Shown one piece after another: positions 7,601 to 59,560 of a DNA stretch of 64,000 nucleotides; position 1 is the first letter of the stretch; each line of letters begins with the position of its first letter. This DNA is from Xiphophorus maculatus. Lineage: Eukaryota > Chordata > Actinopteri > Cyprinodontiformes > Poeciliidae. The stretch is taken from contig NC_036462.1 in assembly GCF_002775205.1 (NCBI RefSeq), positions 27,283,084 to 27,347,083 on the forward strand, in the 5' to 3' direction. Position numbers and translations under genes: made by a program. Below the pieces are notes generated by a model. It saw only the letters and a program-made list of their open reading frames with translations. It had not been told where the DNA came from and did no database searches.

Positions 7601-8720
7601 TTAAAATTTGAAAAAATAAAAATAAAAAAACAACTTCAAGCTTATTTCGGCTAAATGGTTAAGTAAAGAAAATCGTTTTGAATTTCACAATAACAATTAT
7701 CCATTATTTTTCCCTTTGTGCAGGATATGCTCTGAGATCCCAGTTAAGTCCAACTAAAACAAAAACGCATTTATTCTACAAAATATATAGCAGATTGGTA
7801 TGAGTGAGAAACTGAAAAGTTCATGGATCACGGCCCCTGAGGTGCGAATTCTGACGCCTGCTGAAATGCAGAAGTCGTTGGCCGTCCGAGATGTTTTGTG
7901 TAGGGTCTGTAAAAAACTAACCTTTAGCACTTGGTACTCCTCGAAATCCACCGGCCCATAGGCAAGAATCCTGCCCGTCGACTCTTCGATTCTGAGGACT
8001 CCCTTCGGGTCCTTGTCCACTCCTTGGCCTTTCAGGTCGAAGAGTACTTGATATTTGCGGTCGATAGTCACCTGCAACACGACTTTTGTTTTTTTATAAT
8101 CTGCTTTTACGAGAATGAACATTTCCTTAAGTTATTAAGTTTAAAGCATATCCCTGTATTTGCAGTGAAAATAGCTGAGTTGCATTGCTGATAGCTCCTG
8201 TGTTTTCAAGAGGAGGATTGTCGATTCGTTTGCACCTTGTTTTTTCACATGAAGAAAGACTTCTTTACCTTGCCCAACACGTAAGGAAAGGGCCCCGGGT
8301 GCCCTTCTTCTATCTCGTAAGAGTCGATGATCCAGGCTCTCTTCTGGCGGCTCTGCGCCACTGTGCATGACGGACCAGGCAGCAAAAATATCTGAAAGAT
8401 AAAGAGCCAAACAAACCAGTAGGGCAGTGAAAGCCGCCGTCTACGCGCCAACTATTTCTGCTCTGCTACACGCTTTCTGTCTGTCAAGTGACAAAGAAAA
8501 AGGCCGACTGGAAATATTTCCTCTGAGTAGCTTGAAGTATTTCTTTTTAGTTAACGTAACCAGAAACAAACACAAAAAAAATTGCTTAACATTTAAAACA
8601 TCTACGTTTCCTAAAAGAAAACAAGATTCAAAAGATAAACTTATGTAAAGCAGAGCCTCTTGAGTAAAGCCTGAAATCTTTAGTACAGGTGCTACATACC
8701 AGCAGGGGTAAGAGAAGCAT
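1669..8720 (-). CDS. cdh26: Cadherin-26-like adhesion receptor (14 exons found, C-terminal end unresolved)
   Basis: Single-pass calcium-dependent adhesion receptor. Minus-strand exons: 8700-8720, 8269-8391, 7922-8071, 6991-7135, 6742-6905, 6287-6418, 3949-4131, 3531-3847, 2776-2918, 2474-2698, 2177-2395, 1971-2092, 1831-1893, 1669-1752. All phases join into 697 codons without a stop. Residues 1-20 are a signal peptide. RQKR at 22-25 is a furin site, leaving Ala-Trp at the mature N-terminus, the Trp2 position used for strand swapping. Linker calcium motifs are DINDNPP (123-129), a degenerate EDGNDHLP (232-239), DVNDPP (369-374) and DVNDNVP (476-482). The membrane segment is about 593-616, split by an intron. 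Short stretches such as AWRAK and HDPA.W match CDH26 rather than classical cadherins. The last three exons are short cytoplasmic-tail exons inferred from splice sites and phase. No convincing terminal exon was found left of 1668; it may be unrecognised or absent. Confidence 0.88.
4621..4790 (-). mobile_element. LINE 3'-end fragment
   Basis: (AGATA)n followed by ATCTTTATTGTCATTATCAC and GACAACGAAATTCAAAGG, the typical inverted 3' tail of a fish non-LTR element. It sits in the cdh26 intron between exons 6 and 7; boundaries approximate. Confidence 0.55.
5425..5490 (+). mobile_element. LINE 3'-end fragment
   Basis: AAAGTGCCTTGAGACGGC followed by TATAAATAAACTGAATTG, the usual 3' end and short tail repeat of a fish L2/Rex-type LINE, here on the plus strand. 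In a cdh26 intron. Confidence 0.55.
6061..6210 (-). repeat. (GAATA)n satellite tail of a LINE 3' end
   Basis: About 21 tandem GAATA units (6061-6166) run into ACTTTATTCATCCCAGCAGG, the inverted 3' tail of a non-LTR retrotransposon. The expansion sits about 120 bases downstream of cdh26 exon 6 within the intron. Confidence 0.75.
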
Positions 8721-10582: not shown

Positions 10583-12377
10583 TTATTTCGTACGGGAGGT
10601 TTCTTCGCAGTAGGAGCGCACACTCCGAGCTCTCTGCTCTCCTTCCCCCGGCGACACGCCTCTCTCCGCCGCTGCGCCGCTCGGCGTCTCCTCGCTGTCC
10701 GACCCGACCAGAGGGGTGTCCCCTCCGTTGACGTTGGCGGCCTGGCTGTCCGAGGAGCAGTCCGAAGACGTGGAGGACATGCGGGACTTGCCGTCCAGAC
10801 GCTCCAGGACGTGGCGGAACAGCCCGTTCCTCACGGCCGCCTCGTCGCTGCTGTGGCCTGCTAATGTTTGGAGGTAGGAAGCACAATGTTACTGGTGGTT
10901 CAAAGTCGCTTTTATTTTTTGTTTTGTATGAGCCACACTCTAAAAAAAAAAAAAAACGGCTATATGGGCATATTATAAAACATTTGAGCAACATTTAGTT
11001 GTCTACTGACTTAGTCAAAAAAATATATTTTGAACTTACTGCAGTAAGTCATGTCAAATTTTTTATTAATTTTGTCCCATCTGTTGAGTAAAGTAGGGAT
11101 TTTAGGTTTGCACTTAAAAACTGAAACATGAAAAAGGCGGGAGTGGAAACAATTTCCCAGGGTGCTTAGCGGCATGTTGTAATGTCCTGCGTTGCACCAT
11201 TAGTGAGGTGGAAATGTGTTGCATGCCTCCTATATGGAAGAGTGCTGAAGACATTTAAAAGTAAGAATTCTGACTTCATTCTCAGAATTTTGACAGTTTC
11301 ACAAAATTCTGGCTGATCTCAGAATCATTTTTGTCGGAGTTCTGGCTTCAATCTTTTGAGGGAAAAAAAAGTCTGAATTCTGAGATAAAAATCTTTTATT
11401 TAAAGTGCTCATTGTGGCAAATGTCAATTTAAATACAAATAACAGCAACGATTGAGGAGGAGAATGTCTTCTAATGTTGCTTAAGTCCAGCTCAAAATAA
11501 TACACTGACCCAACAAATATTTTGCTTAAGTACTTTAATAGGGATGCTAGAAATACATGTAATTTTCTATAGGGATAACGTAAATTTTTGCTATATTTGG
11601 TGACATATTGATCACTAAATACTGTCAAATGTAGTAAATTAAGTAATAAAAATCAGTTGTTAAACACATTTTTCAGTAGGTCATTGGTAACTTTGAAGTT
11701 AAAGCCTATAAATGTTTTGAATTTTATTTAATTATGCCCTTTGATACTTTCAGCTCAGCTTTTCAATCTGGTTCACATAATACCTTTAGTTAATCTACTC
11801 AATTGATGAGTAGATTAACAATTTAAGAAAACTTAAATGGTTAAGATGTAATTAAAAACATAACTTACATTTACTTACTACAAATGTTTTGTTCCAACCA
11901 ATCTGAGGGCATTCAAATAAACTCAATATTTTTACTTGTAAAAATGTTATTGCATGTTACTAAATTTAATTAGGGTATAATTTTTTTAGAGTGCATTACG
12001 ATCCAGTTTCAATAGTTTTAATACCCGGCAGCGGCGAGGACAGCAGCCCCTCCTCCCCCACGGAGCTGAAGAACACATCCACCGGGTCTGGGTCAGAGAG
12101 GTCGATGAGCTCCATCTGGTCCAGGAGATCCACGTTCACCTCCATGGAGGAGATGCTGCCGATGGGCGCTGTAAAATCAGAAGAAAAATAACCAAAAACA
12201 ATTAGAAAATTTTTATTCGTGGACGCAGAAAGCCCTCTACGAAACGTCCAGCTTACGTCTCCTGTAGTCTCTGATGCACAGGTGTGCCGAGGACAGGTAG
12301 ACGTCCACTTCGTGCTGGAAGACCTCCTCGAAGAATCGCTGTCGCTCCCTAAGCTTGAGCTGCTGCGCTGACTCCAT
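10583..12377 (-). CDS. dbndd2: Dysbindin domain-containing protein 2
   Basis: Small cytosolic protein of the dysbindin-domain family; human DBNDD2 binds and inhibits casein kinase 1. Three coding exons on the minus strand, 12257-12377, 12025-12168 and 10583-10857, splice in phase 1/phase 1 to give 179 residues. Residues 7-17 (LKLRERQRFFE) and 42-54 (PIGSISSMEVNVD) are the family signature and match DBNDD2 rather than DBNDD1, which lacks the first. An acidic segment follows, then a Ser/Asp-rich stretch with TPL and SDSEE, typical casein-kinase-type sites. The start is the ATG at 12377 because human DBNDD2 begins at the equivalent Met just before the Gln-Gln-Leu motif. An open frame continues upstream, so a longer isoform is possible. 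The 3' part is GC-rich. Confidence 0.9.
10932..11995. mobile_element. Inverted-terminal-repeat element filling a dbndd2 intron
   Basis: Begins CACTCTAAAAAAA and ends TTTTTTTAGAGTG, perfect inverted tips. The interior is AT-rich without a transposase. It makes up about 91% of the 1167-base intron between the second and third dbndd2 coding exons. Confidence 0.65.
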
Positions 12378-14335
12378 GTCTGGAGGCCTCTGGGCATGCT
12401 CCGTCTCTGCTGGGAATCGCAGGATGCAGCAGGACAGGAAGTCAGACGTTGCTGCAGCACATTTCCCATTTACAGGTTTAATGTCAACAGGAGTGATGTG
12501 ACTCACTGCCCAGGGCAGCAGTCCATTAGGGAGCGGCACGGAAACAAAAACAAAACATGTTTCTGCAAATTACACCGTACCAATCTGTTATCTGGTACTG
12601 TATTGTCATCTCTTGGTGATTGACGATTGGTTGCCCGCGTGTGAGTCAGAAAATAACTAACGACGCTCAAGTTGGCACACGGCTCAAGGACAAACAATCT
12701 GGAATCACTTCTGTCAAATTCGAACTGGATTATTCTTCTTCAACAAAGACTCTTAAAAACACTTTCAGATTACTGAGACTTTTATTCTATTTTTGGCAAC
12801 ACAAAACATTTGCATTTTCCAGAGCTGTTTTGACATCGGGGCGGGGTTTGTCGCTTGTCTAAATACTTTGTTATATGAACAGATTGCATGGGCATCAGAA
12901 AATCGTCACCTTCCTAAAATAAGTCATTTTTTGCTAAAAGTGTTTTTTTTGTTGTTGTTGCCTAAGTTATCTTTAGACAGTAAAGAGGTTGTGATTCTTT
13001 TTTCTTTTCCAAAATCATTTTAGGCCATTATTTTAAGATGACTAAATGTAGCTTGCTACTAGTGTGTATAAAGTTCATGAGAGGTTCCTGCTTGTCTTCT
13101 AATGACTCACTGTCAACAGACCTCTCTGCTTGTTCTGTACATCCTTGTGTCTTGACTCCTGACCAGTGCATTGCTGAAAACTCATTTCAAAGCGCTCACA
13201 GCCCAGCAAGCCAGAAGAGGGCGACATTGAGCTGTAGCCTAGAACGAGATTTATATTCCTTCTTCTGTTTCTGTAGAAAGTAAGCACTAAATATGACAAC
13301 GCCAGGCATAAAGTGATGCGCATGTTAGCAGTTTTATTTTTTCCGCTACTCTGTAAGCATACATCTATGAAGAGCCAGCGTTTTTAAGTCCCCTGTATTC
13401 ATCATTTGTATGAAAAGCTTTACCGAGCGCATGAACGGAAATTAAAGACAGCCGCACTCTGCTCGCCCACACATTTTCAGTCTTGCTGTTAAGATTCACA
13501 GGGCGAACTGTGAGTCCTCTCGCTAAGTTAATCCTGTTTGAGGAAACCGGGTGATCCCATTTTCCTCCTCATCAGCATCACTGTAACCCGAACCGGAGTT
13601 TAAGTGGAGACCAGGCTGAAGAGAACCGAGGTTCTCTCTTTTTAGATTACTAATCTTCTATTGAAATAAAGACAGGTAGATAGTTGAACTGAGATCTATG
13701 AATCAGTGGATTTACTGGCAGCTGCTATCATCAGATGAGTGTCTGAGATCCGAGCAGCGATTCCAGCCCGCAAACAGGGATTGAAGTAATTGGATCAGCC
13801 GTCTGATTCATGTCTAAACTGGGAGGAAAGTCAAGCTTATCTAGTCAGCGTAGGGCTTAGCGACCTAAAAATGCACCGGCGAGTGCAATTTAGACCGGAT
13901 GAGTCATCGCTTGTGTCAATATGAGGACGCTCCTGTGATGGCAGGTTTTCTGTGCTACTTTATTAAGTCAAAGTAGCACAAAAAGTGCTGCAAAAGAAAA
14001 AGAAAAAAAGAATCCCTCTTTGGAAGTGCTAAGGCAGCAAAGCTGATCTAAAAGAGCAACAGGTTGGCCTGTCTGGCGTGCTGCATCAGCACAGTGCTCC
14101 CCATGAGTCACGGCCAGGCGCACATCTGCGACGGCGACATGACAGGAGCCTGTCGCCGCAGCTCCTGTCTGAGCTGACAGCTTGTTGACGGAGAGAAACA
14201 GAGAGCTTCACAAGGAAGACTGAGGAGGACATTTTAAAAACCCCAGGGTCATCGGAAACAACAATCAGCTGAACCTGCTTTCTGCTTATTTACATCCGTA
14301 ATAAGGAAATATTCATTCCTGCTCACTGCGTAGTC
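12378..14335. other. dbndd2 upstream region, no gene seen
   Basis: Presumably contains the dbndd2 promoter and 5' leader exons, which I could not place. No coding stretch with codon bias or recognisable domain. Moderately GC-balanced DNA at 13,450-14,280 looks less repetitive than its surroundings. Confidence 0.35.
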
Positions 14336-38535: not shown

Positions 38536-38547
38536 GGATTTAATTAA

Positions 38548-38920
38548 TCCATCCATCCATTTTCTGTTCACCCTTTGTCCCTAATGGGGTCAGGAGGGTT
38601 GCTGGTGCCAATCTCCAGCTACGTTCCGGGCGAGAGGCGGGGTTCACCCTGTACAGGTCGCCAGTCTGTCGCAGGGCAACACAGAGACATACAACCATGC
38701 ACACACACACACTCACACCTAGGGAGAATTTAGAGAGACCAATTAACCTGACAGTCATGTTTTTGGACTGTGGGAGGAAGTCGGAGTACCCAGAGAGAAC
38801 CCACGCATGCACAGGGAGAACATGCAAACTCCATGCAGAAAGACCCCGGCCGGGAATCGAACCCAGGACCTTCTTGCTGCAAGGCAACAGTGTTACCAAC
38901 TGCGCCACTGTGCAGCCTGG
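38548..38920 (-). mobile_element. tRNA-derived SINE, well preserved
   Basis: Read on the minus strand it has an A box (GTGGCGCAGTTGGTAAC, 38,892-38,908) and a B box (GGGTTCGATTCCC, 38,852-38,864), a conserved central body and an (ATGG)n tail. The target duplication TTTAATTAA is at 38,539-38,547 and 38,923-38,931. Ends 55 bases before the acceptor of the ataxin-1 family exon. Confidence 0.9.
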
Positions 38921-38975
38921 GTTTTAATTAAACTTGACTAAATGAAACTCATCAATATCTGTCTCCTTTGCCTAG

Positions 38976-41900
38976 ATCAAGATGACCTCGAGTGTGTGAC
39001 AGTTGCCAAGAGACTAATGGCGGGTTTGACACACGATCTCCGGACCAGCTCTATCTCAGCAGAAGGCTATGTATTCTTGGAGTGAATGACAGGCAAGGTG
39101 AGGCAATGAGCTTCACAACAAGCCCGGCTCTGGTCCCACACAGGGACAGCCTCCCGTTTAAGAAGAGAGACCAAAGAGTGAGCTCCCCTCAGCAGCAGCA
39201 GCTGCTGCAATGCGACGCCACAAACTTCAAGGCACCCTATCCGTACAAGAGCCACACCGACTTAAAGACGAACCACATGGGTCTGTTTCGGCCTGTGCCG
39301 AGGCGGGTCACGGCCCTGTACCAACCCTGGATGCAGGTACAACCCCCTCCCAGGCCCAAACAGCACATCCCGTCCGCCTTCAGAGAGCACCACGGCTGGG
39401 CAGAGTGGAGAGACTTCAGTCCTCTGCCTCCCAGATGGGACTTTTCCCATCAGTACCAACTGCAGAACCATTTATCCGGAGCACGGGCTCTCCACTCTGG
39501 ATATCCAAACTATGTCTCTAGACTCAGCGCGGGGTCTCTGATGTCCGAGGGCATCCAGAGGGGGAGCGGAGGCTGGGAGAGGCTCAAAGTGTTAAAAGAC
39601 AAAACCTATGGCTCTCACAAAGGTCCCTATGCCAGGAGAGGAGAAAGAAGAACTGATGATTTGCACAGAGCTGAAAGAGGAGGCGCTTACCTACCTCACT
39701 CCACGCATGAGGACAACACTTTGAAGCACAGTTCATTGTTCAACTCTACAAAAATTACATCTGGACAATCCCTCATGAGAGTTTCCCCCAACAGCCTAAA
39801 CGGCACAAGCACTCCCATGAAAGAAAACAAGCAGAGGTCTCCTGTGGTGCCCCTGTCCACTCCCACCGGCCCTAACCGCTTCCCCTGGCTGCTGCCCCAC
39901 TTCGTCGCCGGGTCCCTGATTGAGCTCAGAGATGGCCGGCTGAGGAGGGTGGAGAACCTGCAAACCGAGGACTTCCTGCTCGGCTCTCTGGCCTGCCCGG
40001 ACCTGCGCCTGAGCTGCTGCACGGTGCAGAGCATCTCCCCTTCAGCCGCCTCCTCCGTCTCCCGCCTCCTCATCCTGCTTCACGAGCAGCAGTCCCAGGT
40101 GAGGGGAAATCACTCAGTGGCTATTATTATTATGCACCGTGGCCGGCGGCCCCCGCACAAATAGCTGTTAATAGTCCTTTTATACGGCGCGTCAAGCCTC
40201 TTTCACTTCATCGCAGTTGCAAGATGAATCATTTGAAATATCGCAAGTTCTTTTACGCTTTTGAAAATGAGCCAACAAAAGAAACAGATTGACACTTTCA
40301 AATATAAATGTAGATTTTAGTAACCAAACCCCGCTAGCATCTCCTATAATATCCACCTACATTCAACACTGACTGCAAATTGAAACTACAGCTGCTGCTT
40401 GGAAAAAACAAGTCAAACAAGAACAGATGTCATTGTTAAATACAACCAAAATTACAAGTGGTTTCTCCAAATTGAACACAAAAATTACACTTTTAATTAC
40501 GAGCGGTCGCCGCTTGTAAAGTTAGACGGGAAATACATAATTAACAGCAATAGTTTGGTCCTACGTTTTCAGATAACACGCTGGACGTGTCGAGAGTGAA
40601 AGAATCGAAGATTTAAGGAATGAAGAAAATATTACCCGAGCGACAACTAAAGCGGTTCAGTCTCGCCAGCAGCAGGAAAATATTTAAAGTTCTCAAAACC
40701 CAGCTTTTGTTTTAACAGTCCACTTCCGCTTATCGGCAGGTTAATTAAAACATTAGCTAAATATTTAGCTGGCAACCTAAACATTTAGCAAGCTAGATAT
40801 TTTTGGTTTGAGCTCAATATTTAGTTTGTAAGACCAAACTACACATTTAGATTAAACATTATATGTTTAGTTTAGATTAAGTTAAATTAAGTTTTTAGTT
40901 TGGAAAATAAATAGTTTGTAAGCTCAACTATGATATTTATAAATGCATGAAAATGAATGACACACATTACCTACTGTGAATAGTGGTTTCATAAAATGTA
41001 TATATATATTTTGTTTTAAGTGTTGCTTCTGCTTAAAATGAGTATTTTATAATGATGCTATTTATATATCTTTTCATTTTGAGTCTTTAAAATACCATAA
41101 TATGCACTTAGCTACTTTTTTGTGTGTCTAATTATGTCATTTTAAAATGATAAGTCAGACTTTCTGATCAATTACTCCATACTTTAGTAGCTTTTTTTCA
41201 CAGTACCTTTTCACTCTCACTTGAGTAATTTCTAATTTTTACTTTTACTTGAGTAAAAATAGAACAAAGTGGTGCTACTATTAGAATATTTTGGTGCTTG
41301 GGGGTTCCTCTTTCTGCCACCAGGTGGCGTAAGTACTGTTCCTTTAACTTCAAACATGAACTGTGCTTCCCAAGTATCATTCTGGTGTCAGGTCCATTTT
41401 TGTGTTTCCTTTTCCCTGCAGTGAAATGTGACTGTCACCAGTCCAGATATTTGAGGTGTCTCAGTCTGAGACCACAGCTGGTTTGTGATTGTGTATTTTT
41501 ATAAGGATTTCTACTTAAAGTAGGATTTCTTGTTGAATTTATATGATATTTAAGTAAATTTAGATAAAATATTTAAACTGTTTTAGTTAAATGTATTTAT
41601 TGCTACATGAACCAAATTTGCTGTTTGGGTTAAATCATTGTAGCTGCGTCTGTAACATCATAGCAGGTAAGTTTAGTGCTCTAACAGAGCAACATTGCAC
41701 ACATTATTGTGTAACTGGCTTGTGTGTGTGTGTGTGTGTGCGTGTACGTCCTCCCTTCAGGAGCTGGTGGATGTGTACGTGGAGTACCCTTTCTTTGTGC
41801 GCGGGCAGGGCTGGTCGTCCTGCAGCCCCCAGAAGACAGCCCGTCTTTGCGGCCTGCAGTGCCGTCAGCTCAGTGTGGGAGACGTCTGCTTGGCCCTCAC

Positions 41901-42099
41901 GCCCGTCTCCGCTCCCGAGCCGCTGCCATCAGACTCCCCACGGCCAAAAACTGCCCCCAAAGAACCCGAGGACAGTCTTGATTCCCCAGAGGCAAACGCT
42001 GCGCTGTGCAGCCAGGTTCTACCTGAACCGAAGGAGCTCTCAGGGGAGCAGAGAACGGGGACAAAGGCGTCCCGCAGGAGGCACTGTTCGGCCCCGTGA
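38976..42099 (+). CDS. Ataxin-1 family protein with AXH domain (compact, no polyQ)
   Basis: Putative nuclear RNA-binding transcriptional co-repressor of the ataxin-1/ataxin-1-like family. Coding exons 39106-40098 and 41761-42099 join in phase 0 to give 443 residues. 38976-39105 is probably leader, after the acceptor at 38975. Near the N-terminus, residues 14-20 (SLPFKKR) resemble the ataxin-1 start region. The AXH domain runs about 258-385: LPHF..GS at 263-269, VENL.TEDF, then VEYPFFVRGQGWSSC and LSVGDVCLAL. The intron splits the AXH domain where I recall the ATXN1 intron doing so. The protein ends in RRRHCSAP, related to the RKRRWSAP motif that binds 14-3-3 and U2AF65 in ATXN1, but without the Trp. 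There is no polyglutamine tract, only QQQQ at about 28-31, and it is about half the length of human ATXN1 (815). The start is chosen because an in-frame stop lies at 38983. HBP1 also has an AXH domain, but no HMG box is present here. Confidence 0.87.
41170..41300. repeat. TTACTTGAGTAA-type MITE fragment in intron
   Basis: TTTTACTTTTACTTGAGTAA and related blocks, found again inverted at about 42,295-42,420. Diverged, family not named. Confidence 0.4.
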
Positions 42100-46786: not shown

Positions 46787-49700
46787 TTAATGACAGCCAC
46801 AGGCTCTGACCACCATGTTGCGGTACTTCTTGAGGATGACGTTGGAGCTGTCGTCAAAGTACAGCACCGAGATGCCATTGAGCTGCGTTGGGGCGCAGCA
46901 GGGCTGGGGGACTGTCTCCGGGTTGATGAAGTGCACCTGCGGTTAGAGGAAGTACGAGTTAATCTGCAGAGCACGTGGAGGCTGTTGTGAAAGTACCAGC
47001 GATCAGGGACTGTTTGGGACTTACCAGAGTTTGCACGATGGCGTGATTGGTGGCATTCATGTCGGAGTTGAGAGGGAAAGCACACTCGCCCTCACAGTAA
47101 TACGCAGCGTAGCCCTCCGGCGCTATTATCCAGTCCTGATCAGAGGAAAACCACAACCACAGTAACTGACGCTGCCTACAATAAAACTGCGTGTAAAATG
47201 ATATCCTTTGCTTTGTACCTGCCATCCTAAGTCTCTGAAACTGACATAGAGCTCGTGTTTCTTACAGCCCTCTTTTGATAATCCGAAGGCATCTGAAACA
47301 TGCAAACCCAAGGTTTTAGCACAAAACATCAGGGAGACCATCGCTCCATGCTGGCAATATTTAACGTCTTAAGTACCAGTTCCGGCCTCTGCTGCCCTCA
47401 GTGCTTCTTGGACCGCTTTCTGTTGTTTGGAGCGGTTTGACTGCCGTCCTTTTTGGCCGGGGGCCGAGCGAGCGCCACGGAACCGCACCTCGTTGACTTT
47501 AAAAAACACAACGAGAAAGGGCTGCTTGTCTTTAGGCTCACTCCCAGTCAGCAGCCCAGCTCTTCTGGGATTCCTCTTCTGGCCTTTGCAGGGCAAGATT
47601 TAAGTCAAGTCCAGTTTATCTGTACAGCACATGTCAGCAACAAGGCAGTTCAAAGTGCTTTATGTCATAAAAACATTGTAGCCAATTTGTCAAAAGCCAT
47701 CATCAAAATCATCAAGCAAATACGCACCAAATATGTTGATCAACAACAGCTGTCTGATTTGTTTAGGCAGTGCGGTTACAGTAATCAGTGCCACTAAACA
47801 GGATATTGGACCTTTGATTCTATAAATGTTCTTCAGCTGATAGAAGGCCGACTTTGTAACTGTCTTTGTGTAGCGATGAAGGTTCAGGTCAGAGTTCATC
47901 GCTACACCCATATTTCAGGGCTGATCGCTAGTTTCCAGCTGTAATAACAGAAGCTGCATGCTGACTCTTGAACTTTCCTCTTTAGGTCCAAAGCTGATAA
48001 GTCCAGTTTTGTTTTTGTTCCACATCAGGAAGGTATGGCACATCCACACACTGACTAGTTCTAAGCGTCTCTTCAGTGCATGGATGGGTTCAAAGTCACC
48101 TGATGACGTTGTATTGTAGAGCTGTGTATCATCTTCATAGTAACGATACCTAATCTTATTTTAAAGTATAAAGAGCTGGCTAAATGTGGCAAAAATACAC
48201 ATCTAAGCTCCAACAAAACTGGGAATTATTCTTCTACACTAAATGTGAAAAATGCACAGATCATCTCAGATCATAGGAACACTGTTTTATAAACCCTTGA
48301 ACTTCAATAACTGGCTTTAATGGTGATATCGACCAAAGTTTATTGGTATTTACACAAAGAACTGGCAGTTATGGTTCTGCTATTATTAATCTTCCAGTTC
48401 TTGTAGCTCCCAAAGCAAGAAAAAGTGTAAAAATGAACAAAGTAGCTTTTATCCAGATTCCCTTTAAATTTTTAGCTCTGGTTCCATGTATCTTCTGTAA
48501 ATACAAACTTTGCGATGCCCGTGCAGGATAACCGTTGGTACTGACTGTTGTTGTCCTCGAGAACCAGGTGCAGTCCCAGGTTCTGCTCAGGGCTGAGCTG
48601 CCACAGGGTGCTGGTAGCGGTCAGATCAAACACAAGCCATCCGTCATCTGAAGCCCAAACGTCTCGCTGATCCAGAAGTAGCAGTGCCACATCGCTGGAA
48701 GAGCAAAAATGTGATGTGATATTCAATCAATAACATTAATGTTTCTGCACGCTGAAGCGTTTCCACCTGTTGAAAACATTTGGGGGGGGGGGAAAACGTC
48801 GACAAGAACGTCGACAGCGTTCTTGTTTTAAAGCTGGTAGACTCCACTCAACAAAAAGGGAGAAAAGAGGTTACAGATGAATAATCTAAACGTAATCTCA
48901 CATTAGAAACCCAGGGACTTTTACTCTAAAATAAATTCAGTCTCACTTGGGCTTTAAACTTGGCAAAGTACAACAAGCATTTTCAAGTAAAAGATGACAC
49001 ATCCAGTTTTTATTGCTGAGAATAGCAAAAAATATTTTATTTTATACACCAAGATAATTGAAGATTTAAACCTTTCTTGGGTTGAGAAAACATGCAAGAC
49101 AGTGACGTTTAGATACCTCCTTTATTTAACAAAAACAAGCTTGTCTTTTAAAATGTATAAAAAAAATATTTGGTGTTTAGATTATAATATACAGCTCTGG
49201 AAAAACTGAGGAGCCCACTGCACTGAACCCCATTGAAAACCTGCTGGTTATTCCACCAAATATTGATTTCTGAACTCTTCCTGAGTTAAAACATTAGTTT
49301 TGTTGTTTCTAAATGAATATTAACTTGTTTTCTTTGCATATTTGAGACCTGAAAGTGCTGCATCTTTTTTTTTTTTATTCGGACCATTTCTCATTTTCTT
49401 CAAATAAATGCTAAATCTTTGGTTGGAATTTCAGAGACATGTTGTCAGTAGTTCAAAGAATAAAAGAGCAATGTTGATTTTATTCAAACATAAACCTATA
49501 AAGAGCTGTATATATGATTTTTAAGGGAAAAAAAATCTAGATCAATCTCCAAAACCGGTTTTCACATAAACAGGGATTCAGCTCTCAAACCTCTTGTCTT
49601 TGTAAGGAATTTCAAAGACAATTGAGCTGCTTGCAGACGTCAGGGTGACTTGTCCTGCTGCCTTCGGGTCTGTTTGGGGTTGTCTGTGAATGACAATGGT

Positions 49701-52700
49701 GTTATTTTACTACCATCGTCAGACTGACTGACCCAAATCAAACACCTAAGTACCGACCTTCTGGCACCACAATGATCACCCTTTTTTAATGGAAATGAAG
49801 GTTTTTACTCTTATTCATGCTGTTGGCTCTTTCCATACAGAAAGGCTGAATGTCACTGTGGAACAATTTAGAATTAGTTCAAAATGCGCATGTTGTACGC
49901 AGATGATGTTGTTCTTGAACGTTGATACCGTAGTCGCATCAACTATAAAACATTTTGCAACAATTGCAGCTGCAAGTCTCTGGCGCAATGTCTCCACAAA
50001 CTTTGCCTATTTAACTGTTGTCCGTTCCTTGTTGCAGAGCAGCTAAAGGTCTAAGCTAAAGCTAAAGGCTAAATACATCTACGAGAATCAATCTTCAGAT
50101 TATAGAGGAAATGCTAAATTGGACTTCGGTCTCAATCAATCTAAATCTACTCATGCGACTCCCGTTGTTGTTGTATGACTTGGTACAAATGTTAGATGAG
50201 ACTTTTCATGGCTTTCTTTCAACTTTTCCCCCGTAAAAGTCGGTTTTCTTAAGGACAAACAGTTGTCAGGTTAACCCGTTCTCAGATCTCTGCAGCTCCC
50301 CCACCGTTACCTTGGACCTCTTCTCTATGATTAATGCTCCCATTGGTCCACCTGTCAGTTTAGGTAGAAGGTCATGACTTGGTATGTTTGTGGTTGTGCC
50401 AAAGTCTTTCCATTTTCAGATGAGTCGTCAAAACAGTGCTATGTTAAATGTTCGGAGTTTGGGATTCTAATTTACAACCCAACCCTGACTTAAACTAGTC
50501 CACAACTTAATCCCTGACTTGTCTGCTGTGTTCCTTAATCTGGCATGTGGTCATTATTGTTCTCTAATAAACCTCTGAGGCCTTTGCAGAACAGCTGGGT
50601 TTGTGGATTCTGCTTCCCAATGAAGTGGCTTTTGAAGACAGTTGGTTGCTTTGGATTTTTTTTAAAGAAGTTCAGGGAAAATAATCCTTCTTTTAAGATG
50701 TTTACAAGTGAAAATCAGGTATGATTTGTCTTACGATTAATAATTAGGCACTAATTTGTGTTGATACACTGGCATAGATAAATATAGCGTGAGAATGACT
50801 TCGGAAACATTTTATATAGAAGTAGCTACATGTTTGAACATTTTCTTCAATCATTTTTTACCCTTTGCCTGTGAGGATAACGTTTCAGTCTTTCTATTTT
50901 CTAACTAGCCTTTTGTATGTGTTTTCGTTTAAAGACCGACAGAAAATATAAATTTTTAAAAAAATAAGGTCATTACTGAATCACCCCTTTTGAAAAAAAA
51001 AAAAACCCTAGTCAACGCCAAAGAACCGAAAAGAATAAAAATATGTTGTCTATTCCATCGGAGAAGAATACCACAAGACAATTGCTGATTGTTTTGTTTC
51101 AGCATGAAAGAAATGATTGCTCAAATTGCAACTTTTTACAAGACTTGTTCCACAGAACAGCAGATTTACTGGGATTCGGAGGGCGGGGGGGAGCAACGCA
51201 AAAGCTCAAGACCTCTTTCATCCAAACGTTACAGCAACGGTTGTGTTCTAAGTGCCTGAGGTTTAGATTAGTCCGAGAAGGTGTAATTTTAGGAGTTGCT
51301 CGTCGAGCTGTAATTAAAGTCGGTATTTTGAATATCGAAAGTGGCAAAGAAGAAGCAAAACAGAAGCTGGCAAACAAAACACAGCAAGCAAGACCGGCAA
51401 AACGAAGGAGTAACTACATGTGACGTCCAAGGGATATTTGGTATCACTTGTGGTGCGAGGAGTGCGGCGAAATTGCAGGTCTCCTGAGAACAGTCCTGTT
51501 TGGATACGGCGAGGCCAAAAATTGCCGTAGAGAAAGTCTCTGTGTTTTCTGCAATTAACACTAATGTCTGTCTGCTGAAGCATTTGGGCTCTGACATTCA
51601 CGCGAGCTGAAGTGGCATGTGTGGGGCCCGGGTGCTTATCTAGACCATCTGAGGATAATCGGACAAACCGATCCGACGTTTATAGCACTTTAAAGGTCAC
51701 CTGGAAAATGTTTTCCATTCGTTTTGCTAAGCGCGAGCGAGTTAAGGGACTTCTACCTCGTCACGATGGAAGCACCACCCTGCACAATGCTGAAGTCCAT
51801 CCCGTCTGAGAGAAATTAAACGTATCCTCATGTTAGCACTATTTATTTTTCTTTTTAAATTGCGATAAACAAGTCTGGATCTCGTTTAAGTCAGACCCAA
51901 CCGATTAAAATCCAGTCTGCTCGTCCCCAAAACTGCAGAAAGTTTTGACACAATCATTAATGAAAGAGTGATGGAAAACAAGACGCTTAACTGTCTTGTG
52001 GTTAGCACTGTCAGGGCATTGGGGAGGGGACAGAGGGAGGGGTGGCGTCTATGAAATGTGCTGAGCAAGAATGAAGAATGTGACACCAGGACATGTTCAC
52101 CTGTCTGGAGGCTCCTGGAGGACTTGGTAGACACTGACTCGGAAGGTTTCGTTCCCGTCACGCTCCCGGATGAAGTCCTTGTAGATCCTGAACTCTGCGG
52201 CAGTGATGGCCTCGCCCTCTGGAATACGGGAAATATCGAACCGAAACGCCTGCGCGTGCGGCCGGTCCAGGAGGTCACGATCCCCATCGACTGGCAGGTG
52301 GAGAAAGGGAGAGAGAGACAGTCGTGACAGAAAGCTTCTGATTTAAACTTCGTCCAAATGACGATGCCACTACTCACACATGCAGGTTCTCTTCAGAGAA
52401 TTAGCCTAAAATTCATCCGTCTTCCCATCAAGTTTGACCTGATTCCCTGGCAAACAGAAGCTTCCCCACAGCATGATGGTACCACCACCATGCTTTACCT
52501 TCTAAATGGTGTGTTCAGGATGATCCACCTCCAAGCCTCGTCTGTTCAGAGAGCCTTGCTCTCCACATTTGCTGTTTCTCTGCAAACTGCCACTGGAATT
52601 CCTTTTTTGTTTGTTATTTTTTTATGCAACTCAAGCTTTATACCTCTCATTTTTTTCCCCTTTAAGGCAAAATTTGGTTCTGCACCAATAATCTCCACAA

Positions 52701-53889
52701 CTTTGACTCTCAACTGTCTGTGTTGCGCGCTCTGCATGATACTGTTGTTTCATCAATCTCCTCTAATAAAGCCCCCGAGTCTTTACAGATCTGCTAATAA
52801 GATGTTTTAATTGCATGAATGTTTGTAAAAATAAATAAATAGTATTAATAATAATTAATTAATTTAAAAAAAAAGTTATATTAGATTACAAACTTTGTAC
52901 TTTGTTTTTGCAATTTTGTTCGCAAAGACTGACTTCTTTATGGGAAAAATGTGTTTAAAAAAAGAATAAAATAGAATAGACTTTATTGTTTCCCAACGGG
53001 AAATTGCTTATTCATTGACAAGCTACTTTATCCAATGTGTTACACATTGGATTTATTTATACTTATATAAATAAATACAATAGTACTTTACATATACAAG
53101 TGACAAATTATTTTTTTTAATTATAGATACATAAGTGTGATATTGTAAGCAATTTAAATATGACTAAATATATATATATATAAAAACTAAATAAAAATAA
53201 GACAAGGACAAGCATGCACATTAATCTACGAATGAATCTATAAATTAGTCCATGGAAAACTTAGATTTAAAGACTCAAAATCAAAATCTGAAGGCTACAG
53301 GCAGAGGTGATCTCCTGTGGTGCATTTTGGTGTCATCAGTCTCCAAAATACACCATAGAGTGCCACAGGATATTATTATTATTATTATTATTAACTTTTT
53401 ATGCAAGTTACATTTTTTCTAAAATCACCCAAAAACAAAAATTTAGTTTTTATTTTTTAATTAAAAAATAAAAACAAATTTCCTGTATTACACATGTATA
53501 AAAGTTGGTGTTACCCTTTTAAATTTTTTTTTTTTTTTTTTTTTTAGGAGAGTTGCAGATATTTGCAGCTCTGATCCAATTGCATATCATCAGACCGAGA
53601 GGCAAATAAAGTGCTTTGGATTGTGAAAGGTGGTGACCCCAGGTCTGCCCTATAAAATCCCAAATGAGATACATTCAATTGTGGGGGGGGGGGGCATGTG
53701 GCAATAAAAGGCATAATAAAAAGCAGTTTATTATGGCAAACCAGTCAGCGGTAAACTTGTTTATTTAAACGTCCCTCTGCTGGGTGTTCCGCTTCCCGCA
53801 AGCTTGGAAGCGCTCTGTCAGGGAAAAAAAATAAAAATCCTACTTCCATGAGTGGAATAATGACTAATGTAAACATTATTTAACTCAAC

Positions 53890-53938
<49 letters not shown>

Positions 53939-56237
53939 CCACACACACCCTCACACACACCTTAAATGCCACTACGGGGGGTGGAGTGAAGATAAAAACA
54001 CATTCGTGGCTCGCCTTGGCTCTCCGTTTAAAATCGCACACATGTGCTGACCACAAGAAAAGGCCTCGCTCGGGCTCTGCCCGGAAAACCGCAGCAGCAA
54101 GTGCGCTTCCTCGAACGCGCAACACAAAAGTACGGAAAGCCACACGGCAATTTCATGCGCGCCCTCGCCGCCTGGGTCGGCTCCCGCCACACCTCCGTAA
54201 TCATCTCGCAATGCGTCGCCGCGCAGTGATTTCCTTTTGATTGGAGAGAAGAAAGCGGAAAAGCGGTAACCGGTGGCACCACAAAGGTTTCCACCCATCC
54301 TGAAGAGTTTTTTGGGTTTTTTTCCCCTCCCCAATAGTTAAAAAAGAAATAAATAAAAAGCAGGAAAAAAGCGGTGAGATGTTTCTTTAGCAACCAGGTG
54401 CGCCCTTGAGAAGTAGAGATCTCTCTCGCCCTTTTAGTTTGAAGCGCCAACCATCCATCCATACCGATGACATCATCCGGAGATCCCACGGACGGTTTGC
54501 GGATATCTGAGAGGAACATCCTTACATCTTGTCATGGCCCCTGACGTTAAAGAAGAAGAAGAAGAAGAAGAAGAAGAAGAAGAAGAAGAAGAAGAAGAAG
54601 AAGGAAAAAAAAAAATCCGGAACGTTTCTTTTACGGCACCGCACGATGACTCACAGTCCTCTAAAAACTCCTCTTAACAACATAAAAACACACACATGCC
54701 AGGAGCCCCGAGTGCCGCATTCTGAACCCTGCTAGTCATTTGTTTGACCGCAATTAAATGCTGCAGGGGGAACGAGGGGTGATTTTATGAAAGCAATAAT
54801 TGCTTGTAAGGACTTGGTGTGTTTACGTTTGGGCCCATTAGCTGCACAGATCAGACCTCAGATATGCAAACTTCCCTCTGGGAGACATTTCGACACTACA
54901 GATTGCTCCCGACGCTGCGGGGCCACACAGCAACACGGCTATAATGAACCTATATGGACTTTTTTTCTTTCTTTTTTTCTTTTTTTTACACTAAATCAAT
55001 TTCGTCGCAAAGTCTGAGGTCGTAATTACGCTTCATGAAAGGTTATTATTTGATAAGTGAAGTGAATTGTGAAATTTCTTATTGATGTAGAACTCCAAAC
55101 ATCCTGGTGAAAGTGGCGTCGGCCTCCTTCTGGAAACTTTGACTATGATGTTTGATATTCATGCAAAAAAAAACGACGACAACCATTAAATAAACCACAC
55201 ATAAATCGAGTAATAAATAAGTAGGTGCATGAAGTTTTATAGCACAATTAAAGTAAATATCAAAATGACCCATTTTACTATCGTCTAAGCTTGTTTCTTC
55301 CTGCTTTGGTTCAAAAAGTATTTCTCGATTCTTCTGCAACTCGTCAGCTGCATCTTCACCAGATATCATAAATTCATACGGTTCATGTGGAGAACACCGG
55401 GTGAAGTTTTCAACCAAAAATAAAAGGTTAAAATGACTAAACAGTCCTTCAGTTGTTAGGATTTTCAAGGAGTGATTCTGAAAGGTTATTCAATTAATCG
55501 TCCCCTAACAATATGAGACAGACCTCACGTTAAGGAGATTTTATAAATTTTTGTTTTTTTGAAAAGTAGACCAAATCAATTGTCACAACCAGCCTTTAAT
55601 CATCAGAGCGCTTATGAAATCCAACCGGAGGGTGCTGGTTTGTTAGATCTCCCACCTACTGATTACCGCCTTCATGACTTACTGCTTTTGCTGGCACCGC
55701 ATAACAGCGCGACCACGCACCGAAGTGTTTATTTACAGCATGCCTGTTTGCCATTTATGTCCCATCTCAAACCATCGGCAGCATCGGCGGGCCACGTTTG
55801 GAGGGACGTCTTGAAACGATTGCAAAGCCACCAGGAAACAATGCCTTCAGTCAAATGCGGTGGAGAAAAACAGCTGGGCGAAGTGAGCTCGAAAGAAGAA
55901 ATGCCACCCACTAATTGTCTGTATTTTGTCTTTTTTTCTCCCGCTCCTGCCTCAGAACTCTCCAAATGTGAAACCGCATGAATGTGCCTTTGGTGTTTGG
56001 AAACATATTTCCACATCTCGTTAGCTGCAGTGAAAAGTTCACCGTTATAGCTGCGTGGAGTGGGACGTTCTCACGACGTCCGATTGTTTTACCGTTGACT
56101 TAGGGTGAACATTTTGAAACCCGCTGCTGATAAGAGAGGTGGCAAAAACTAGTTTCATTCTCTCCACCCGGTCCGCGCCCCGAGGCAGGTTTGCTAGTGT
56201 AACAAAACAAGCACAAACACCATACCGCCTGCTGCTT

Positions 56238-56273
<36 letters not shown>

Positions 56274-59245
56274 CGTGGCTATCTTTGTGGGGACTTTCCA
56301 TTGACTTCCATTCATTTCTTCACCCTAAACCTTACCCTCATAAGGGTATCCTAACCCTAACCAAAACTCAATTCACACCTTTGTCCTAAATCTGACCCCT
56401 GACCCAAAAACAGCGATTCCCCTTGTGGGGACCAGGCTTCGGTCTGGAAGGCTTCAGTCCCCACAAGGAGCAGCGGGTCCCCACAACGTAGGGGACCCGC
56501 TGTCAGGAAAATGGTCCCCACAAGGTATTAGAAACAAACACACACACTTCAGAGCTTTCCTCCTCTAAGGCAAACAAGTTGGATTCCTCCCTTTATTAAC
56601 TCAATGCCACTTCGGTTTCCCCGACTTTTCATCTGTCCCCGACTGATCACAAACCGCTGGAGCACAATGCACAGCGGCGACTCTGATAACTGCAGGAAAC
56701 TGACAGTCACACGTTAAGTTGTAAGGTTGAGCAGAGAAATCTGATGTATGCATGTGGCCACAACGTGTGCAGCATGGCAACGATTTATCCCAACGAACGT
56801 GACCCACGGGTAACAATGTACAGGTATATGTTTTGAAAGGAAGTACACTGTCCTTTAATTATACAGTTTGCAGTTTCAGGAATCAATAAGAACTGGTTTC
56901 TACCATGTTCCAAATTCATTTGAATTTAGCCTCAAAACCGCGTGACAGCTCCCACACCCTCAATATCTGATAGTCCCTTAATGGGGCAATATTAAGTTTT
57001 AAAATTATTATTTAGAGCTTTACGACATGTAATAATGTTATCCCCTTATCAAATCCACACCTGCGGTATTGCCTTCATTCTTTCATGCATGTTTAAGAAA
57101 TCCTTTAATCTCTCATGGCAACCATTCAGATGTACCAAACGCCTGAGTGGACGTAGCACCGCCTTCGAGGATGAAGCTCCTTCTCTTAGCTGCAGTTTCC
57201 AAGCTCACCTTCAGAGCAGCTATCGTTTGTATCTCCCCCACTCAGCTCCTTCAGACTAGCCAGCAGCAATTAGCAGGAGCTGTGCATTTGGTCAGCACTT
57301 TAATCAAGCTACTTCTCAGTGAAACTTTGGTAAAAACGTTATTTAAGGGTTAATAGAGGAGCCATGTTGTGTTGACTTCCTGAAGGCAGAATTTCAGAAA
57401 GAGCAGGAGTTTTTAAAGCGACAGAGGCCCAGTTTCAAGGCACTGAAACACAAATTCAGATGTCTTTTGAGTCACATTTAATACCTTCAGCATTTCTATA
57501 GCAACTGAAGGGAACATAGTTACTTGATTGTGTGCTCTAATGTGGCATTATGTGCCTAGTTAATTCATGATGCTGCCCCTTTAAGAGCAAAGGAATCAGG
57601 TGCTGCCAAGTGAAAATCAGCAATTGTAATCACCTCAGCAAAAGTGCAAATGTTCTCCTTTCGATCATCTCGTGAATTAACACACGAGATAAAACGTGTG
57701 TTACCAAGAACAAAAGACAACAGCGTGAGCAGTCTTAGAGGAGAAATTCAACATGGAGCGAGTTTTATGATCACAATTATTCTTCACACAGAAAGATGAT
57801 TTACGAGCGCAAGACATTTGAAACAATCTTCCCAGGCATGGAAAGGCCATCGCCAGAGTATCCAACTCTCTTCATACATCACTTAGCATGTTAAGAAAGT
57901 TGAATTTAATGACAGTACAATTACAAAGAACTCCAAAAAAAGAAAGTCATGAAAGACGAACGGCTGTTTCAGCAGGAATGCCACAATAAAAGAGTCTTCT
58001 CTCCAAAACGACTTAAGGGCCGAACATTGTGGGTTTGCCCAGCTGCGTTGTAATGAACCACAAAACTTCTGGAACAATGTTCTTTGAACTGCTGAGACCC
58101 CCCAAAAAAACGAGAAGCCCGGCTGCTCAGAGCACAGCCTGCACCAGGACCAACACAAATGTCAAGCACGGTGGTGGAGTGCTGATGATTTGGCCCTGGG
58201 CTCTGGAACTCACTGGGAAATGACCTAATCTGTATACCAATGAATTTTTTTAAGTAAAAAAAAGAAAAGCCATTGATCATAAATTTAAAAAAAATAAAAA
58301 ATTAATCCAAAATATTGCTGTTAAAAGAGGCTGAAAAAGCTACTGAAATGTGGATTTTCTTTGTTTTTCCCACACATTCCGACATTAATTTGGCTTCATC
58401 AAAGGTTATTTTTTAAAAATTATTATTTTGTTCTGCTTTTTTTGATGTTTTATTGGGATCTTGCACGTAAACACTGACAAATGATAGAGGATGTCCTTTC
58501 TTTACGTATGAAACGTTTTGTTGTTATTTATGGATGACGTCATATGGCGTCACCGTCATAAAATAATGGCCTAAGAAGTGATTTTTTTTTTACTTATTTT
58601 TTTTTTTATGTTTTTTTGTTGTTTTTTTTTTTTTGCCTAAATCATAGTTTGGGGGAAACATTTGTTTGCTTTTTGTTTTGTTTTTTCAAAATCACTTTTG
58701 GGGGGGGATCACTTAGCCCATCAGGAATGCGCTGGTATTAAATATGAACTTGCTGTAATGTTTTCCAGATTAAACATTTCCATGTCTCACACACAGCAGC
58801 AGCTTAATTGTTACGATAGTAATAATAATAATAATAATAATAATCAGTGTGAGCGCTCACCGAGGTTGACGAAGCTCATCACCGTGTCCGCGTCGTCCAG
58901 GAAGCGGCTGTCCTGCTGGCTCACCGCCGCCGACGCCTGACCCTGCAAAACCGCCCTGTACCGCGAGACAGCGCGCGGCTCTGCCTCCGTGGACACGGTG
59001 TTGTACAGATCCAGCATGAACGTCGGCGCGGCGTTGTGCTTGGTGTGGGCGTGCGGCCGCGGGCGCTGTGGCAGGCCCAGGATGGAGAGGATCTCCCGCT
59101 GGATCTCCCTGCGCTCTTGGCTCCGCAGTCTCCGGTGGATGAAGCTGGAGCGCGCCTCGCTGTCCACGGAGAAGTTGGAGAAGGAGACGCGCGTGGCCGA
59201 CGCGCAGGATCCCCAGCACGACAGCAGGAGCAGAGCCACAAGCAT
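46787..59245 (-). CDS. bmp7: Bone morphogenetic protein 7 precursor
   Basis: Secreted TGF-beta superfamily ligand acting through BMP receptors and SMAD1/5/8. Seven minus-strand coding exons: 58861-59245, 52101-52290, 48546-48694, 47377-47583, 47219-47292, 47025-47135, 46787-46936. They splice without a break into 421 residues (human BMP7 is 431); exons of 149 and 111 bases equal the human sizes as I remember them. A signal peptide begins [13 protein letters not shown]. The prodomain shows [15 protein letters not shown] and [16 protein letters not shown]. The furin site RGAR ends at residue 280, giving a mature chain of 141 residues with all seven cystine-knot cysteines ([32 protein letters not shown]). 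BMP5/6/8 are close relatives; neighbour rae1 and the body of the protein favour BMP7. I cannot tell which teleost duplicate (a or b) this is. Confidence 0.96.
47598..48150 (-). mobile_element. L2/CR1-type LINE fragment (reverse transcriptase end and 3' tail)
   Basis: The minus strand reads [19 protein letters not shown] (the YADDTQLY active-site region), [20 protein letters not shown], then a break and a [20 protein letters not shown] segment. It ends in AAGCACTTTGAACTGCCTTG...AAACTGGACTTGACTT. Degenerate; sits in bmp7 intron 3 and stops 15-18 bases before exon 4. Confidence 0.85.
49190..49511. mobile_element. Tc1-like MITE (TACAGCTCTGG ends)
   Basis: TATACAGCTCTGGAAAAA at left and AGAGCTGTATAT at right, with the GGTTATTCCACCAAATATTG interior of a common fish Tc1-derived family. 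In bmp7 intron 2. Confidence 0.8.
49870..50660 (-). mobile_element. Tc1-like transposon relic
   Basis: Antisense transposase debris: CAGCTGCAAGTCTCTGGCG, ATCTCTGCAGCTCCCCCACC, CACCTGTCAGTTTAGGTAG, TAATAAACCTCTGAGGCC. Frame destroyed. In bmp7 intron 2. Confidence 0.75.
52440..52560 (-). mobile_element. Tc1-like transposase fragment
   Basis: CCCCACAGCATGATGGTACC and TGGTGTGTTCAGGATGATCC are antisense Tc1 transposase (HGGG.IM region). Lies about 150 bases upstream of bmp7 exon 2, in intron 1. Confidence 0.7.
52960..53020 (-). mobile_element. LINE 3'-end fragment
   Basis: AATAGAATAGACTTTATTG followed by CCCAACGGGAAATTG, same tail type as at 6061-6210. Confidence 0.5.
53889..53960. repeat. Poly(C) plus (CA)n compound microsatellite
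   Basis: 18 C residues then about 16 CA units in bmp7 intron 1. Confidence 0.9.
53990..54250. promoter_or_regulatory. CpG-dense block in bmp7 intron 1
   Basis: Many CG dinucleotides in an otherwise AT-rich intron, giving open frames on both strands by composition alone. Could be an alternative promoter or enhancer; no TATA or start site can be assigned. Confidence 0.3.
54549..54603. repeat. (GAA)n microsatellite
   Basis: About 18 GAA units, a triplex-prone purine tract, in bmp7 intron 1. Confidence 0.92.
56243..56540. repeat. (CA)n plus GTGGGGAC-rich fish repeat
   Basis: CA tract, then GTGGGGACTTTCCATTGACT, CTAACCCTAACC, and repeated GTCCCCACAA/TTGTGGGGAC in both orientations, including a near-palindrome around 56,474-56,502 (GCGGGTCCCC...GGGGACCCGC). 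Interspersed family common in fish. Confidence 0.65.
57360..57592. repeat. Interspersed repeat, copy 2
   Basis: Partner of 16,010-16,150 (CAGAAAGAGCAGGAGTTTTTA; TGCCCCTTTAAGAG end). Confidence 0.5.
57960..58235 (+). mobile_element. Tc1-like transposase fragment
   Basis: Plus-strand frame reads [12 protein letters not shown], the Tc1 VKHGGG..MIWG motif, next to a AACAATGTTCTTTGAAC block. Broken; in bmp7 intron 1. Confidence 0.75.
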
Positions 59246-59560
59246 TTTAGTTTATGTTTCTTTTAAACTCTCCCAACTTTTACGCACGGCTCTAATCCTT
59301 AAAGGAGACGCCGGAGATGCGATCTGTTCCCCAGGCGGTCCTCGGACATGTGCAGAGAGTTAAAAAAAAAAAAAAAAAAAAAAAAAAACACGCCGCCCAC
59401 TATCAACGCCGTGTGTCATTCATTCATTCATAATTCCCAGTTTGCGCGGCAGCGTGCAACCGTGATACAGCCGCGCGCGCTCCTCTGACGGCTCCACGGG
59501 GAAAAGATTTTTATGACGGCGCTGCGTCAGAGGAGGGGCGCGAGCGGTTCAGGAAAGGAC
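59246..59560 (-). promoter_or_regulatory. bmp7 5' region, candidate core promoter
   Basis: GC-rich DNA just upstream of the bmp7 ATG. A TATA-like CATAAAAAT on the minus strand lies near 59,508-59,516. It sits within a 10-base perfect inverted repeat TCCTCTGACG (59,481-59,490) / CGTCAGAGGA (59,525-59,534), whose TGACG cores resemble CRE half sites. A 27-base A run (59,362-59,388) would lie in the leader. Confidence 0.4.

Follow-up and report, generated by a model that had tools for sequence, protein, structure and literature searches.

A candidate third ataxin-1 subfamily gene beside bmp7 in a teleost genome

Spinocerebellar ataxia type 1 is caused by ATXN1 and modified by the ATXN1 paralog ATXN1L. 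In the human genome, ATXN1L and DBNDD1 lie on 16q, and DBNDD2 and BMP7 lie on 20q. The excerpted text of PMC10676324 places ATXN1L at 16q22.2 and mentions it as the one paralog of human ATXN1, and that of PMC8583371 describes three zebrafish genes, atxn1a, atxn1b and atxn1l. The dysbindin-family gene dtnbp1 is a neighbor that marks both the human ATXN1 locus and the zebrafish atxn1b locus (PMC8583371, excerpt). Ataxin-1 has already been counted among the early-vertebrate ohnologues in work on 14-3-3 binders (PMC3411107, excerpt), so the new part of the present study is the third member of the family. In the titles and abstract openings of open-licence PMC articles, we found no description of a third ATXN1-type member or of linkage of such a gene to bmp7 and dbndd2.

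Here, we analyze a window of 64,000 nucleotides (the whole stretch G000:C20:27283084-27347083) on contig C20 of a teleost genome, and in particular its AXH gene, which we call the window gene. We consider it likely, with a probability of roughly 0.77, that this gene represents a third vertebrate ataxin-1 subfamily, an early-vertebrate ohnolog which was duplicated in teleosts and lost on the human side.

Structure and relatives of the window gene

The window gene has two coding exons, whose coordinates are given in Table 1 together with those of the neighboring genes. The open frame of the first exon spans 38986 to 40164, and its first in-frame ATG is at 39106. The donor (CAG/gtgagg, after 40098) and the acceptor (cttcag/GAG, before 41761) join the exons into a product of 443 aa with no internal stops, ending at the stop codon 42097-42099. 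A reading made earlier from the sequence only had started the gene at 38976. We correct this start to 39106; position 38976 lies just past a plausible splice acceptor, and the region from there to the ATG would be 5' UTR. A dispersed repeat at 38543-38923, with similar stretches at several places on C1, stops some 50 bases before the acceptor of the start-codon exon.

Table 1. Features of the window, with positions counted from its first nucleotide
Feature	Position	Strand	Details
Coding exon 1 of window gene	39106..40098	+	SLPFKKR motif, linker, first part of AXH domain
Phase-0 intron	40099..41760	+	within AXH domain, gt...ag
Coding exon 2 of window gene	41761..42099	+	remaining AXH domain, tail RRRHCSAP, stop
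Altered NLS/ULM/14-3-3 motif	42073..42099	+	RRRHCSAP-stop, versus RKRRWSAP in C1, C13 and C3
bmp7	46790..59251	-	exon ends approximate; matched open frames 46790-46942, 46962-47261, 47129-47368, 47372-47599, 48475-48726, 52100-52342, 58847-59251
dbndd2-like dysbindin-family gene	12014..12404	-	exons 12014-12169 and 12255-12404; Pfam PF04440
Cadherin gene	2169..8451	-	nine open frames matching C1

That the two exons encode a complete AXH domain, as the sequence-only reading had proposed, is borne out by Pfam, in which residues 266-378 cover positions 1-115 of the 116 in the AXH model (E 2.2e-31; score 109 bits, cut-off 33). The best solved-structure match is the AXH domain of ataxin-1, 1oa8 (E 3.2e-31), and the domain is closer to those of ATXN1 and ATXN1L than to that of HBP1.

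A profile search with PF08517 over the 704.3-Mb genome (101 contigs) yielded at least 13 exon matches at seven places, on contigs C20, C1, C13, C3, C4, C17 and C2. The first five of these carry at least five ATXN1-type genes, which are named below by their contigs. C17 is an hbp1-like locus, with a piece that matches HBP1 at E 8.5e-40, and the C2 locus, whose list of open reading frames holds none of 140 aa or more, is taken to be hbp1-like as well. The C13 protein (800 aa) and the C3 protein (825 aa) show the complete ATXN1 architecture, including RKRRWSAPE and the C-terminal tail, and the C1 protein has 675 aa. We take C4 to be ATXN1L/atxn1l by its likeness to the human sequence.

A phase-0 intron interrupts the AXH domain at one aligned position in four of the five genes (C20, C1, C13 and C3), and in C4 the domain lies in a single open frame without an intron. 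The splice site of the window gene matches that of its paralogs C1, C13 and C3, in line with what had been suggested. An N-terminal LPxKKR-type motif is present in all five genes, and the SLPFKKR of the window gene, previously noted as resembling the N-terminus of ATXN1, does align with the LPPKKR of the four paralogs. Over the first 60 residues, none of 2000 shuffles was as good as the alignment of C20 with C1, compared with 397 for C20 with C13 and 293 for C20 with C3, which is chance level; C1 itself aligned with C13 and C3 at 1 and 0 of 2000. The whole N-terminal part showed a weak likeness between C20 and C1 (33 of 500 shuffles as good). The GC content at third codon positions was 0.70 in the window gene and 0.46-0.49 in the three paralogs that share its intron.

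Clade membership and the shared bmp7 block

We computed an AXH tree over 120 columns from eight rows, six of ATXN1 type, one of which is the ataxin-1 chain of the PDB, and two of HBP1. C1 and C20 paired with support 97/100. Forcing C20 onto C13, C3 or C4 cost 28-33 log-likelihood units and was rejected by the AU test (P = 0.0008, 0.0003 and 0.0009, respectively), as was moving either C1 or C20 singly into the ATXN1 group (P = 0.0009 and 0.0018). The initial proposal that the window gene is neither ATXN1 nor ATXN1L therefore holds at P < 0.001 against grouping with C13, C3 or C4. The tree leaves the C1 and C20 pair as sister to ATXN1, as sister to ATXN1L or outside both; the best tree adds C4 to the pair with support of no more than 51/34, and rival placements against ATXN1 and ATXN1L, of which three were tried, were 0.06 log-likelihood units lower (P ~ 0.5). 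The branch leading to the pair is long, at 0.7 changes per column, and within the pair the C20 branch measures 0.52 versus 0.25 for C1.

It is very improbable that the window gene is the atxn1a, atxn1b or atxn1l of this fish at another address. Such an identity would explain why it has an AXH domain, intron and N-terminal motif in common with atxn1, and zebrafish Atxn1b is nearest to Atxn1l in a neighbor-joining tree (PMC8583371, excerpt), so the usual naming of atxn1a and atxn1b is not clean. However, the corresponding roles are already filled by C13 and C3, with their length, motif and tail, and by C4; C20 is rejected as a partner of each of the three; and the dtnbp1 neighbor found on C13 is absent from C20. 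Zebrafish atxn1b itself was considered as a candidate identity and rejected, having 827 aa and the neighbors dtnbp1a, mylip and jarid2 (PMC8583371, excerpt).

To examine the neighborhood, we compared the open reading frames of the window with a 200-kb stretch of C1. The window carries, from left to right, the cadherin (-, 2.2-8.5 kb), the dbndd2-like gene (-, 12.0-12.4 kb), the AXH gene (+) and bmp7 (-, 46.8-59.3 kb), with bmp7 convergent to the window gene at a distance of 4.7 kb. On C1, we found bmp7 (+, 21.282-21.313 Mb), the AXH gene (-, 21.327 Mb), the dbndd2-like gene (+, 21.372 Mb) and cadherins (+, 21.385-21.429 Mb). The two blocks have identical order and relative orientation of the four gene types, with the whole inverted. 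The identity of the neighbor as bmp7, as originally read, is supported by its three mature-domain exons, which when joined by hand scored 232 bits against BMP7 and 211 bits against BMP6, in a comparison of these two that leaves BMP5 and BMP8 outside. Pfam Cadherin matched four of the nine cadherin frames, exceeding its curated cut-off in one, and none of the other five; among ten long open reading frames of the window, eight had no Pfam family at E 0.01.

Because C1 repeats the same four gene types in order, the linkage to bmp7 is not private to one locus and predates the duplication of the block. In the AXH part, 32, 33 and 71 of 118 codons differ between C20 and C1 at positions 1, 2 and 3, and the NG86 estimates are dN 0.35 and dS 1.97 (dN/dS ~ 0.18), with dS close to saturation. 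The excess at third positions and these two rates indicate that the protein of the C20 and C1 genes is under constraint. The shared block and the near-saturated dS together have the appearance of a teleost whole-genome-duplication pair, and this is most likely how the block was duplicated.

Two further features emerged from the comparison with C1. The window cadherin has several matches along C1:21.385-21.429 Mb, which suggests that the cadherin of the C1 block has expanded locally in tandem. Within the bmp7 span, window positions 49151-49521 match C1:21.3196 Mb, a place outside the C1 bmp7 gene. The match recurs in several frames and on either strand, and the stretch is probably a dispersed repeat.

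Dysbindin linkage and the proposed origin of the gene

A genome profile search for the dysbindin family detected five loci with nine exon matches in all, and each of the five contigs with an ATXN1-type gene has one of these loci. The distance between the AXH and dysbindin genes is 27 kb on C20, 43 kb on C1, 88 kb on C13, 1.3 Mb on C4 and 17 Mb on C3. Judging by the human sequences, we take the dysbindin genes of C13 and C3 to be dtnbp1-like, that of C4 to be dbndd1-like and those of C1 and C20 to be dbndd2-like. On this naming, atxn1 is paired with dtnbp1, atxn1l with dbndd1 and the window gene with dbndd2. A dysbindin tree, which has five short rows and no fork at the full support mark, unites C1 and C20 at 94/97. 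On C3, the dtnbp1-like locus (C3:32845870-32846291) is a divergent second copy 17 Mb from the atxn1 gene, in which a stretch matching PIGSMSSMEV was not found.

The probability of the contig pattern arising by chance would be 1.5e-5 only if the five pairs were independent, which they are not. Because C1 and C20, and probably C13 and C3, are duplicate pairs, we instead use figures for three ancestral blocks, for which, assuming 12-13 ancestral chromosomes, the contig pattern has a chance probability of about 0.003. For two of the three blocks to show close linkage within 100 kb, the chance probability is about 2e-6 at the present genome size. The five shared contigs and the matching of AXH types to dysbindin types fit an early-vertebrate ohnolog, and the co-linkage on all five ATXN1-type contigs lends support to the early-vertebrate block origin that had been put forward from the sequence. 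Other members of the neighborhood are more scattered: on C13, a BMP gene sharing the bmp7 exon pattern lies at 13.118 Mb and a TFAP2 gene at 14.67 Mb, megabases from the AXH gene of that contig, and on C20, bmp7 lies at 27.33 Mb and a TFAP2 gene at 11.19 Mb. These linkages are loose. TFAP2 matches were absent on C1, C3 and C4, and BMP matches with the bmp7 exon pattern were absent on C3 and C4.

Another explanation, which we consider unlikely, is that atxn1 or atxn1l gave rise to a copy that landed next to dbndd2 and bmp7 in ray-finned fishes, after the split from tetrapods and before the teleost duplication, and that mammals lost nothing. The sampling here is teleost-only, the tree fits several placements relative to ATXN1 and ATXN1L about equally well, and the 0.7 changes per column on the C1 and C20 branch fit fast evolution after a small duplication as well as great age, all of which accommodate an insertion. 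On the other hand, a given dysbindin locus would fall within 100 kb of an AXH gene by chance with a probability of about 0.0009 (any of three AXH genes) or 0.0014 (any of five), and the matching contig with atxn1l and dbndd1 would be left unexplained. Duplication of an atxn1-dysbindin block in one piece would explain the linkage, but it would predate the tetrapod split because human has DBNDD2.

We therefore return to the third-subfamily reading, in which an ancestral ATXN1-dysbindin block would have been multiplied in the early vertebrate whole-genome duplication, producing ATXN1-DTNBP1, ATXN1L-DBNDD1 and a block with the window gene and DBNDD2. The teleost duplication would then have copied the third-type block to give those on C20 and C1, and the third-type gene would have been lost on the human side (20q). 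We infer both the early-vertebrate dating and the mammalian loss from a comparison that covers this one teleost genome. The earlier statement that the gene was kept in fish and lost in mammals is borne out in part: its presence is seen in this fish, and its putative absence from human follows the naming of a single paralog, ATXN1L, in the excerpted text of PMC10676324.

Partner-binding residues and comparison with known genes

The NLS/ULM/14-3-3 motif, as defined in PMC2791216 (excerpt), is intact in C1 (RKRRWSAPD). In C20, the ULM tryptophan is lost (W to C), RxxSxP is kept and the tail is cut off. A conserved C-terminal end is a feature of the ATXN1 family (PMC8583371, section 2.1, excerpt); this tail is common to C13, C3 and C4, different in C1 and absent in C20, which stops after SAP. 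Because C1 is also without the tail, its absence marks the subfamily and is compatible with kinship. The carboxyl end S-A-P of the C20 protein also resembles what we take to be a motif for 14-3-3 docking at protein C-termini.

PMC3796545 (excerpt) names sixteen AXH residues in contact with, or lining, the site of the Capicua peptide, and in the numbering used the PDB chain matches this list at all 16. C13 and C3 each keep 16 of 16, C4 keeps 13, and C1 and C20 each keep 12 of 16. In the pocket for Capicua Trp37, formed by A584, S602, L609 and L686 (PMC3796545, excerpt), C20 has A584R and S602G, both unique to it among the six rows, C1 has L609F and C4 has L686I. Since C20 is without the ULM tryptophan and has two pocket changes, we infer that its protein should have no affinity for the UHM domains of splicing factors and that its binding to CIC may be weak; its 14-3-3 site is predicted to remain. 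The putative role of the third-type protein would be that of a nuclear AXH adaptor, which forms dimers and offers a docking site to partners that include the repressor Capicua (CIC). Of the two copies, that on C1, with its full NLS/ULM/14-3-3 motif, would be ancestral-like, and that on C20 derived.

These same losses, the length of 443 versus 675 aa and the longer branch could also mean that the C20 copy is a decaying pseudogene and C1 the working third-type copy. We regard this as rather improbable, as the 443 codons contain no stop or frame break, the splice sites are canonical, and the AXH part has the third-position excess and a dN/dS of about 0.18. We lean toward the broader view that vertebrates started out with three or more ataxin-1 genes, every one in linkage with its own dysbindin gene, and that the third survives as two fish copies, one freed from splicing factors and partly from Capicua.

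If true, a third ancient paralog would complete the history of the ataxin-1 family, and it would caution that the number of ATXN1-type genes in a fish model can exceed the three known from zebrafish. The C20 gene would then be a natural separation-of-function ataxin-1 that has been lost from human biology, and natural variants of this kind may separate the binding of Capicua, splicing factors and 14-3-3.

Among the known genes closest to the window gene is ATXN1 (zebrafish atxn1a and atxn1b; C13 and C3 here), with which its AXH domain is 44-47% identical (C3, C13 and the PDB chain). It resembles ATXN1 in its AXH intron, LPPKKR-type N-terminus and the dysbindin gene on its contig, and has the NLS/ULM region in an altered form, but it falls in a separate clade, is shorter, has neither the conserved C-terminal tail nor the ULM tryptophan, and sits in a block with dbndd2 and bmp7 instead of dtnbp1. 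Its AXH domain is 44% identical to that of ATXN1L/BOAT (C4), which likewise has an LPPKKR-type N-terminus and a dysbindin gene on its contig; unlike the window gene, C4 has no AXH intron and keeps A584 and S602, and C20 groups with C1. HBP1 (C17) has the AXH fold family in common with the window gene, whose domain is 27-36% identical to the two HBP1 rows, but it is an HMG-box protein that lies far outside in the tree.
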